From: Candidatus Altarchaeota archaeon
GTDB taxonomy: Archaea; Altiarchaeota; Altiarchaeia; IMC4; QMZM01
Assembly: GCA_030609775.1 (NCBI GenBank)
Contig: JAUWTD010000006.1
Location: forward strand, 1-38,965
Length of the DNA stretch: 38,965 bases
Reading direction: 5' to 3'
In this document: positions 4,151 to 7,525 of the stretch, in pieces
Layout of the letters: each line of letters opens with the position of its first letter
How positions within the stretch are numbered: position 1 is the stretch's first letter
Made by a program: the position numbers and the translations under genes
The notes under the pieces: generated by a model
Seen by the model: the letters and a program-made list of their open reading frames with translations, nothing else
What the model was told of the DNA's origin: nothing
Database searches by the model: none

Positions 4151-4816
4151 ATGAAGATCAAAGAAATGCTTGAAGACAGCCGACCACGCGAACGCTTAGT
4201 CAAACACGGCGCCGGAAACCTGTCTGACGCTGAAATCCTTGCAATCATCCTACAGCAAGGAACCCGGGATGAGAACGTCATCGACATGAGCAGCCGACTG
4301 ATCAGCAAATACGGCCTAGACAAACTATCAGAATGCAGCCTAAAAGAGTTGCAGGAGATTAAAGGCATCGGGTTTGCGAAAGCCTGCCAGATACAATCCC
4401 TCTTCGAATTCAACAAAAGACATGCATCCGCGAAAAAAACAACCAAAAAAATAAGTTGTGCAGAAGACGCATTCAATCTATTCCATCCCCGGCTCAGAGA
4501 TGAAAAACACGAAAACTTCATCGTGCTCATGTTAAACACAAAAAACCACATCATCGGAGAAGAAACAATAAGCAAAGGCACAATCGATTCATCCATAATA
4601 CATCCGCGGGAGGTGTTTCGGCCTGCAATAAAAAACTCCACCTCTCGGATCATCCTCATACACAACCACCCCTCAGGCGACCCGACACCCTCCAAAGCAG
4701 ATAAAAGAATAACCCAAAGCATCATAGAAGCAGGCAAGGTTTTGGGAATCCAGGTAATAGACCACATAATCGTAGGCGACGGAAAATACACCACCTGGAG
4801 CGAATGGGAAAAATAA
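4151..4816 (+). CDS. radC: RadC-like JAB/MPN metalloprotein
   Basis: A 221-residue RadC-family protein, near the usual bacterial length. The N-terminal half has the UPF0758 region with a helix-hairpin-helix (ELQEIKGIGFAKA, about 67-79). The C-terminal half is a JAMM/MPN+ domain with H171-x-H173, S175 and D184 in HNHPSGDPTPSKAD and a likely catalytic Glu upstream. The family is predicted to be a zinc enzyme; the old link to DNA repair is weak, and members are often carried on mobile elements. Its 3' end abuts an hsdR relic on the other strand, so this may be part of a once-mobile segment. Confidence 0.9.
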   Translation: MKIKEMLEDSRPRERLVKHGAGNLSDAEILAIILQQGTRDENVIDMSSRLISKYGLDKLSECSLKELQEIKGIGFAKACQIQSLFEFNKRHASAKKTTKKISCAEDAFNLFHPRLRDEKHENFIVLMLNTKNHIIGEETISKGTIDSSIIHPREVFRPAIKNSTSRIILIHNHPSGDPTPSKADKRITQSIIEAGKVLGIQVIDHIIVGDGKYTTWSEWEK

Positions 4817-5047: not shown

Positions 5048-5102
5048 AAATAGAATCCAATCAAAAACTAATTTTTTAGCGGCAACTACCTATAATATTA
5101 GT

Positions 5103-5378
5103 GGTGGACTAGGCCGGGGGGCTGGGCGTCCCCTGTTATTTCCAATCGCCCTAACGGAAAGGCTGAAGCCTGGGAGGCGATACATCAACTAGTCATTAGT
5201 CTGAGTTTTCAACGATGATTCTTCGTCTCACTGGATTGTCTTCCATAGCAACTGGGTCAGACCCTGACGGGAGCAGCCCTACCTATGGACGACGATGCTG
5301 GGGAGGTAGCGGAGATGAGAAGAAAACCCAGGTAGCTGATGGCTGGAAGATGTACCCACTTCCGGCGTGTCCGCCACC
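5103..5378 (+). ncRNA. ffs: Archaeal signal recognition particle (7S) RNA
   Basis: About 276 nt, the usual size for archaeal SRP RNA. The 5' segment AGGCCGGGGGGCTGGGCGTC (5111-5130) is the conserved archaeal Alu-domain start. Terminal pairing is seen between GGTGG (5103-5107) and CCACC (5374-5378). The S-domain helix 8 signature GGTCAG, then GGGAGCAGCC (5255-5278), is the SRP54-binding site, and TATGGACGACGATG matches the helix 6 region. The helix 8 apex reads CCC-TGAC-GGG, so the tetraloop is TGAC rather than the common GGAA. The ends are set by pairing and could move a few bases. With SRP54 and SRP19 this RNA targets membrane proteins to Sec61. Confidence 0.93.
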
Positions 5379-5650: not shown

Positions 5651-7084
5651 TTAGCTAGATAAGAGCTCATCTGAGATAAAAAAGAAATTAACTGTCTGAT
5701 TCCTATGCCCTGTAACTCCCGCTGATGTGAATCCCTGCTGACCAAAGGCATAAAACCCTATGAAGTCAACACCCTCCAAATACTTATTAATCAACCTAAA
5801 TTCTTCCTCACATGCCCCATACCCCTCCAAAAACTTTTTCCTGCCGATCGCATAAAATATAAGGCAAACCTTAGGCTTACATCTCTTCTTTATTTTCTTA
5901 AGCGCGGTTTCTGTTGCCTTTATAACCGACTCCTTAGTTGCTTCATTCAAAGATAAGACCACATCCTGCGGCACGTTTGCACAAAAAGTCATACTCCCAT
6001 CTCCATCTACCTTCCAAGGATGCTTCAGCCAACTGTTTCCATGAATGTCTGAGATACCTAAAACATACTTTGACCCAATATTTTCTACTACGGCGATATT
6101 CCCTCTCCTTATCAGCTCTTGTTCATCCATTCCAATCATTTCGGCATAAACCTCTGAAGCCCTCCTATGATTCAATTCATAGACTATTCTCCCCTCTGAT
6201 TTTGTCACAAAAGCACTTTTTTCTGTAGGATACCAGCCATGGGTGCTGATAGAATCTGTTTTACAGTCCAAAGCAACTAATGTAATGAGGACGCTGTCTT
6301 TATAGACTTCACCATTATAGAACTGATATGATTCCTTATATTTTAGATTATCCCCGCTGCCGCCTCCCAGGATAGGGCACCTGTTACCGAATACGCTGAA
6401 GACACCCTCTAATGCGTTCTCTTCTTGCTGGCTCATGAAATCAGGAAACCCAAAAGCAAAAAATAGGTTAAGTTTAAGTATATCGCGTACAGTTGTTCCC
6501 TGACAGATAGTTTTAGAAAAATCATGTTCAAGATCATTTAACGCCATTTCAGCTGCGTTCTTCCCTGCCTTAAACCCATCTTTTTTCAGGTTTCTACCTA
6601 CCCCCACCCCGACACTTATATGCTCTGATTTCATTGCCATAGCAACAACAGAATTCTCTGTTATGCCCTGTTTTGATATTTCTCCACAGGTCGAGCAGCC
6701 AATAATCTTTGTGTCTTCTGGAAATTCCTTATTAAACTGCCTGAAAAACTTTTTTAGATCTATATGAGTCGAAGAAAATACGATAATAAATGAGGGATCA
6801 TCTATCTCTTTTTTTATGTCCTGACTGAGTTTTTCTGAAAGTTTTTTTTCATCTTTTATCTCAGAGTACGCGACAACACTTTGAATGTTTGCGTGTTTAC
6901 TGGATATATGCCAAAGTTTTGCCATACCCACTCTCTTAAACTTTACTAAGCCTTTAACGTACAAAATCTCTAGGTTTTTGGATACAGTTATCCTGCTTTT
7001 GCCAAGATGCTTAGATATGTCTGTGCTAGATGCTCCGAAGTCTACTTTTTTAAGATATTCTAGTATGTTTTTCTGTGTCTTCAT
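5651..7084 (-). CDS. Winged-helix/FIST-domain sensor-regulator
   Basis: A 477-residue protein. Residues about 1-68 form an ArsR/MarR-like winged helix (ASSTDISKHLGKSRITVSKN, then a short basic wing). The remainder matches a FIST_N domain (FSSTHIDLKKFF, IIGCSTCGEIS, VVAMAM) and a FIST_C domain ending in FYAFGQQG. FIST domains are predicted ligand sensors, often fused to signalling modules. A direct fusion to a DNA-binding domain would make a one-component regulator. The start is ATG at 7084 (MKTQKNILEY); a TTG at 7135 is in frame but overlaps palindrome 1. No membrane segment is seen. It is divergent from a small repeat protein with two like palindromes between them. The ligand is unknown. Confidence 0.85.
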   Translation of the reverse strand: MKTQKNILEYLKKVDFGASSTDISKHLGKSRITVSKNLEILYVKGLVKFKRVGMAKLWHISSKHANIQSVVAYSEIKDEKKLSEKLSQDIKKEIDDPSFIIVFSSTHIDLKKFFRQFNKEFPEDTKIIGCSTCGEISKQGITENSVVAMAMKSEHISVGVGVGRNLKKDGFKAGKNAAEMALNDLEHDFSKTICQGTTVRDILKLNLFFAFGFPDFMSQQEENALEGVFSVFGNRCPILGGGSGDNLKYKESYQFYNGEVYKDSVLITLVALDCKTDSISTHGWYPTEKSAFVTKSEGRIVYELNHRRASEVYAEMIGMDEQELIRRGNIAVVENIGSKYVLGISDIHGNSWLKHPWKVDGDGSMTFCANVPQDVVLSLNEATKESVIKATETALKKIKKRCKPKVCLIFYAIGRKKFLEGYGACEEEFRLINKYLEGVDFIGFYAFGQQGFTSAGVTGHRNQTVNFFFISDELLSS

Positions 7085-7120
7085 TTTTGCTTTATATAGA
7101 AGCCATACCAATAGATAACC

Positions 7121-7139
7121 AGTATTGTTAACCAATACT
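7121..7139. promoter_or_regulatory. Candidate operator 1, 7-5-7 palindrome
   Basis: AGTATTG-TTAAC-CAATACT with perfect 7-bp arms, 36 nt upstream of the ATG of the HTH-FIST gene. It has the same architecture and the same ATTG-N5-CAAT core as the palindrome at 7160-7178, centre to centre 39 bp. A dimeric winged helix could bind here; binding is inferred. Confidence 0.6.
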
Positions 7140-7159
7140 ATTAATCAATGCTTTTAAAC

Positions 7160-7178
7160 AAGATTGTGATTCAATCTT
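7160..7178. promoter_or_regulatory. Candidate operator 2, 7-5-7 palindrome
   Basis: AAGATTG-TGATT-CAATCTT with perfect 7-bp arms. It overlaps the upstream edge of the TATA box CTTTATAAATA (7176-7186) of the plus-strand gene at 7205, where a bound protein would block or guide TBP/TFB. It shares ATTG-N5-CAAT with the palindrome at 7121-7139. Confidence 0.6.
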
Positions 7179-7204
7179 TATAAATAACTAAAGAAACAAA
7201 AAAA

Positions 7205-7525
7205 ATGGTTAGAGCAAGCTCCTATGTGTTAAAGGACATATCTAATGTGCTTGAAAACAGAGACCTGAGTAAAATAAAAGAGTTGTATAAACTAAAAGAG
7301 TTGTTTGATAAATTCTCGGCGCGTTATTCCGAAGATTCTGAACTCATTAAAATCTGCGAAAAATACAGCAAATACCTTGAAAACAAAGACCTGAATAAAC
7401 TAAATGAAATAAAGATGTCCCTAAACGTTCTGAGAAGCACCCGGACAAAAAGAACTGCATTAAGTGACGGCCTATGGTTCAAAAACAGGCGGCCGAATAC
7501 GGTGCAATCAATCAATGTCATATAA
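7205..7525 (+). CDS. Small helical repeat protein, function unknown
   Basis: A 106-residue protein that I do not recognise. It is charged and mainly helical, with an internal duplication: LENRDLSKIKEL (about 16-27) and LENKDLNKLNEI (about 58-69), 42 residues apart. The DNA copies (from 7250 and 7376) are nearly identical, so the duplication is recent or conserved. The C-terminal 35 residues are basic (RSTRTKR, KNRRP). TATA box CTTTATAAATA lies at 7176-7186, about 25 bp before the ATG, so the message is probably leaderless. It is divergent from the HTH-FIST gene and shares its palindromes, so it is a likely regulatory target or partner. Confidence 0.7.
   Translation: MVRASSYVLKDISNVLENRDLSKIKELYKLKELFDKFSARYSEDSELIKICEKYSKYLENKDLNKLNEIKMSLNVLRSTRTKRTALSDGLWFKNRRPNTVQSINVI

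Follow-up and report, generated by a model that had tools for sequence, protein, structure and literature searches.

Does the DNA between a gene for an HTH-FIST fusion protein and a small gene divergent from it hold the operators of the fusion protein, and what would such a regulator switch? We addressed this question in a stretch of 38,965 nucleotides from Candidatus Altarchaeota archaeon (contig JAUWTD010000006.1), the whole of which is called the window here. An SRP RNA of the archaeal type at 5102-5376 (Rfam RF01857, 148.6 bits) marks the window as archaeal. A complete RadC gene (UPF0758_N plus RadC JAB domain; 4151-4816) adjoins this RNA, and RadC is mainly bacterial. The features that the argument concerns are the following.

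5651..7084, minus strand: HTH-FIST regulator gene, 477 aa (Pfam domains; the orthologues share the start Met)
5732..6790, minus strand: part coding for FIST_N and FIST_C, residues 99-451 (Pfam)
6902..7084, minus strand: part coding for the winged HTH, residues 1-61, with recognition helix GKSRITVSKNLE
7091..7098, minus strand: TATA-like box on the regulator side, TTTATATA on the plus strand, kept in the alignment of loci and in spacing
7121..7139, no strand: predicted operator 1, distal to the small gene, AGTATTGTTAACCAATACT, kept in three orthologous loci
7160..7178, no strand: predicted operator 2, proximal, AAGATTGTGATTCAATCTT, centred 36 bp before the small ATG
7177..7184, plus strand: TATA box TTTATAAA of the small gene (from the sequence; similar spacing in three other loci)
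7205..7525, plus strand: small gene, 106 aa, paralogue of an A-ATPase-operon protein (family search and gene context)

Pfam searches placed FIST_N at residues 99-307 of the regulator (E=6e-46; 157.2 bits against a gathering score of 23.2) and FIST_C at residues 309-451 (E=1.3e-19; 71.1 bits against 28.5), and this succession of the two domains, both above their gathering scores, identified it as a FIST sensory protein. The N-terminal winged HTH, at about residues 2-61, was matched only weakly (HTH_5, E=0.0018; 18.5 bits against a gathering score of 22), and the threshold of HTH_24 was passed by distant HTH-FIST relatives. The fusion proposed in the preliminary description was thus borne out, strongly for FIST_N and FIST_C and weakly, in the window protein, for the winged HTH. 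A sensor and a DNA-binding domain in one chain make a one-component regulator, and the window protein has both, its HTH part being weak. In archaeal one-component regulators of the ArsR-, TrmB- and Lrp-like kinds, a winged HTH is joined to a ligand domain and a palindrome covers the BRE/TATA region of a divergent gene. The window regulator is alike in architecture, but its ligand domain is FIST and its matches to ArsR-type HTH models fall below the ArsR/SmtB cut-offs (HTH_5, 18.5 against 22 bits; NF033788, 23.8 against 55 bits). A PDB sequence search with the regulator gave no convincing relative, and the AlphaFold2 model made from the single sequence, with no alignment, was unusable (pLDDT 34).

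The region between the divergent regulator and small genes is 120 bp long (7085-7204). It had been described as holding two 7-5-7 palindromes with an ATTG-N5-CAAT core, 39 bp apart, one of them lying over the TATA box of the small gene, and all of this is present exactly as claimed: operator 1 reads AGTATTG-TTAAC-CAATACT, operator 2 reads AAGATTG-TGATT-CAATCTT, the distance from centre to centre is 39 bp, and operator 2 overlaps the first 2 bp of TTTATAAA. Two perfect palindromes with 7-bp arms and a 5-bp spacer were obtained in none of 5000 dinucleotide shuffles of the 120-bp region, and at least one perfect 7-5-7 palindrome in 142 of 5000. The bare ATTG-N5-CAAT core occurs twice in the window against 1.3 expected, and 14 times in the 1.36-Mb genome against 7 for a reversed control. 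The rarity belongs to the close pair and to the extended arms; the bare core is not rare. The core was also considered as the mark of a large regulon and rejected as such, the other 12 genome sites lying on contigs without copies of the small gene.

Scans of genome contigs with the regulator, as a single sequence and as an alignment, found no relative, and the orthologues came from a search of many genomes. Three further genomes of the phylum (G009, G001 and G014) have orthologues with 74-75% identity, and these loci form clade 1 with that of the window. The preliminary description had suggested looking in related genomes for an HTH-FIST gene beside a homologue of the 106-residue protein with palindromes in between. 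This arrangement was found at all four clade-1 loci: the two genes diverge, and an ATTG-N5-CAAT palindrome separates them. These four loci are the whole of the clade-1 evidence; that of G014 is truncated at a contig end and its small gene is broken (L047 917-1254, G014:C37), being read in two frames with stops beside a perfect operator.

When the loci were aligned, the operator core proved to be ATTGTTWAACAAT. The ATTG and CAAT arms of the original design are kept, but its free N5 spacer is not: the core is palindromic and the middle five bases are fixed. A search of 29 genomes of the phylum for the exact 13-mer ATTGTTWAACAAT gave four occurrences. Three of these, one per genome in G001, G009 and G014, are at the HTH-FIST/small-gene locus; the fourth is in G026, in which the search for HTH-FIST gave nothing. 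The window carries a copy with one mismatch at its HTH-FIST locus, as the core of operator 1; in operator 2 what is conserved is the position, not the core sequence. The idea of paired operators holds for the window, but pairing occurs in only two species, with two sites 39 bp apart in the window and two overlapping sites 13 bp apart in G001. G009 and G014 have one palindrome each, and the conserved element is one proximal operator.

The spacing of this element to the promoter of the small gene is nearly constant. At the four clade-1 loci the centre of the proximal operator lies 36, 36, 36 and 38 bp before the small ATG and the centre of the TATA box 24.5, 24.5, 23.5 and 26.5 bp before it, so that the operator is placed about 12 bp before the TATA box centre, while the flanking sequence differs between the loci. 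The proximal 19-bp site runs into or near the TATA box at every one of them. In the window the TATA box is centred 24.5 bp before the ATG, and the small gene is leaderless; this spacing fits the expectation for leaderless archaeal transcripts. On the other side, the TATA-like box of the regulator is 35.5 bp from the centre of operator 1 in the window and 35.5-36.5 bp from the nearest operator across the clade-1 loci. The regulator leader of the window is about 30 bp shorter than those of the three orthologues, and the TATA-like box is only 10.5 bp from the ATG (7084-7098), too close to serve because of this shortening. In the lineage of the window, either the regulator is transcribed from another start site, for which GTTTAAAA (7151-7158, minus strand) is one option, or its expression has changed.

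The HTH-FIST module is a real, conserved archaeal one-component module built of parts of known kinds. The reading that best fits these data, and which we consider likely, is that the FIST regulator, its predicted operator and the small gene as target form a self-contained unit. The FIST domains would bind a small ligand, and the N-terminal winged HTH would bind the ATTGTTWAACAAT palindrome between the two genes, probably as a dimer. The case for the operator is comparative: the palindrome is conserved, nearly confined to these loci and constant in its spacing. With its centre 36 bp upstream of the small start and 12 bp upstream of the TATA centre, the proximal operator would cover the expected BRE and the entry to the TATA box. 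Since the site covers the expected BRE, repression is the first guess, and the regulator probably acts on the small gene as a repressor: in one ligand state it would block TBP/TFB at the leaderless small gene, and in the other state it would relieve the block, the opposite sign being conceivable. In the orthologues the operator would also stand about 62 bp upstream of the expected regulator start, and at this distance autoregulation, mild or activating, is likely.

The same geometry could serve an activator. It is possible, though we doubt it, that HTH-FIST binds upstream of BRE/TATA and brings TBP/TFB to the promoter of the small gene, and maybe to its own, as some archaeal activators do. An activator would likewise need the fixed spacing of the operator to both core promoters, the start expected for the regulator itself is situated well downstream of the operator, and G001 and G000 have a second site further upstream. 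However, the proximal 19-bp site reaches the TATA box or its vicinity at every locus and covers the expected BRE, and a site over the BRE is the usual position of an archaeal repressor.

Next to the repressor reading we also weighed whether the palindromes might be the operators of an unrelated transcription factor encoded elsewhere, to which HTH-FIST is merely a neighbour. Such palindromes are used by winged-HTH repressors of many families, but three lines of evidence make this improbable. First, across the 29 genomes the site is hardly found outside HTH-FIST loci. Second, it is missing along with HTH-FIST at empty sites. In G002 and G005 the prolyl-tRNA synthetase gene stands directly before Sec61beta and the SRP RNA, and small gene, regulator and palindrome are all missing; G002 is of the same genus as G009. 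These empty sites show that the regulator, the palindromic site and the small gene occur here as a set or not at all. Away from an HTH-FIST gene, none of 25 small-gene loci has the palindrome upstream of the small gene, and the one chance match among them lies downstream of it (L085). In G001, the entire promoter survives in degenerate form at a paralogue without a regulator, apparently together with part of the regulator leader. Third, a different site accompanies the HTH-FIST genes of a second clade.

This second clade shows 25-28% identity and a clear HTH_24 match, and comprises three tandem copies in G014 and one copy each in G004 and G255, the latter outside the phylum. Beside their own genes (G014:C61, G004:C28 and G255:C28) stands a different palindrome, approximately GTGCAATATTGCAC, and in each of the three genomes the best or joint-best match to this motif is at an HTH-FIST gene. 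The recognition helix carries LHRNTV in the second clade as against KSRITV in clade 1, and this joint change of helix and site is as predicted for a DNA-binding regulator. In a loose first look, which may miss some cases, 73 of 394 archaeal genomes matched the regulator profile but only the six genomes of these two clades through both HTH and FIST, so that the fusion appears to be rare. Upstream of the three tandem genes of G014 (L048 1-4135) lie copies of the (G)TGCAATATTG type. The gene of G004 (L049 5373-11383) is found near genes for an aldehyde dehydrogenase-family protein, a V4R-domain protein and KaiC-like ATPases, a neighbourhood that looks like a signalling cluster.

That the palindromes have no regulatory role, being due to chance or to a mobile element that once carried the gene pair, is very improbable. 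Palindromes arise easily in A+T-rich DNA, and in three genomes the module looks like an insertion that separates prolyl-tRNA synthetase from Sec61beta, G014 having it at another place. But the palindromes stand between the divergent genes and not at the module ends, the perfect pair was never seen in the shuffles, and the spacing to the TATA box is fixed in four loci despite differing flanks.

What the predicted repressor would control is a member of a small helical family of A-ATPase operons. The small protein matched the profile of this family with E=1e-43, a value from a profile that includes the window protein. The family, of about 90-105 residues, turned up in 23 of the 61 genomes searched, and these 23 belong almost entirely to the order of the window. 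It is defined by homology to the gene after atpD and by a C-terminal LWxKDRRP-type motif. Its members end in a motif resembling SSGGxxLWxKDRRP, and the window copy, which has GLWFKNRRP, belongs to it by both profile match and alignment. In 14 genomes of the order one copy follows atpB-atpD of the A-type ATPase operon, the loci of the ~95-aa family at the operon end being L063, L064, L069, L071, L073-L076, L078-L080, L082, L084 and L090, and paired CBS domains are encoded next to many copies. On contig C62 of the window's own genome there is such an ATPase-operon copy, accompanied by a CBS gene (L084, L099). The window copy is homologous to these but lies away from the operon, divergent from HTH-FIST. 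The ATPase-operon paralogues thus suggest that HTH-FIST controls a paralogue of an ATPase-operon protein. The small gene would be a second version of the helical protein normally found at the operon end, often beside a CBS-domain protein, and, to judge by its paralogues, the switch probably tunes an accessory component that serves the ATPase or the CBS partner.

No Pfam, NCBIfam or PDB family was found for this protein: a Pfam scan of 28 members gave scattered weak matches only, and a PDB sequence search with the window protein gave no convincing relative. An AlphaFold2 model of it made with no alignment shows four helices at low confidence (pLDDT 59). The term repeat protein, which had been applied to it, describes one 15-residue internal repeat that is clear in the window copy and not general in the family, and we rejected it as a family label. 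Among the copies away from the ATPase operon, one adjoins a glycine-cleavage H gene (L103 3314-4023) and two adjoin a CBS gene (L091 3054-5018 and L094 82-2071).

FIST is well established as a unit of sensing, and as to what it senses here, the nearest guide is NosP of bacteria, stand-alone FIST proteins that bind haem, respond to NO and signal by way of a histidine kinase (PMC12570481). The window regulator has the FIST_N + FIST_C unit in common with NosP, and the NCBIfam NosP model matches its residues 72-451 (E=4.9e-41), with a score for NF041558 of 141 bits against a cut-off of 450 bits, below what assignment to NosP requires; unlike the stand-alone NosP, its FIST unit is fused to a DNA-binding domain. 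Most archaeal FIST proteins in the comparison share the histidine H282 of the window protein, which could serve as a haem ligand. CdpA of V. cholerae may detect haem through FIST (PMC8846402). In CdpA and the FIST-GGDEF/EAL/HD-GYP proteins (PMC8846402), FIST-FIST_C is likewise the sensory half of a one-protein signalling unit, but the output of the CdpA type is c-di-GMP turnover, whereas that of the window protein is a winged HTH with a conserved DNA site. It is conceivable, but unlikely, that a FIST transcription factor sensing haem or NO/redox directly switches an alternative A-type ATPase accessory protein; if so, a single protein would connect the sensing of gas or redox state with energy conservation in an archaeal phylum.

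No description of FIST, HTH, a matching operator and an A-ATPase-linked target in combination was found in the literature searched, which was covered in part. FIST domains are widespread sensors, and in the literature found their output passes through kinases or c-di-GMP enzymes. A FIST-HTH fusion with a predicted operator and target offers a simple read-out for the question of what FIST domains sense. The analysis also brings to light a small, uncharacterised protein whose gene is retained at the A-ATPase operon throughout an archaeal order, accompanied by genes of CBS proteins; should this protein regulate the ATPase, it would be a new control point of archaeal energy metabolism. In G014, the module is adjoined by CBS, desulfoferrodoxin and rubrerythrin genes (L047, G014:C37), and the last two hint, in this single case, at redox stress.
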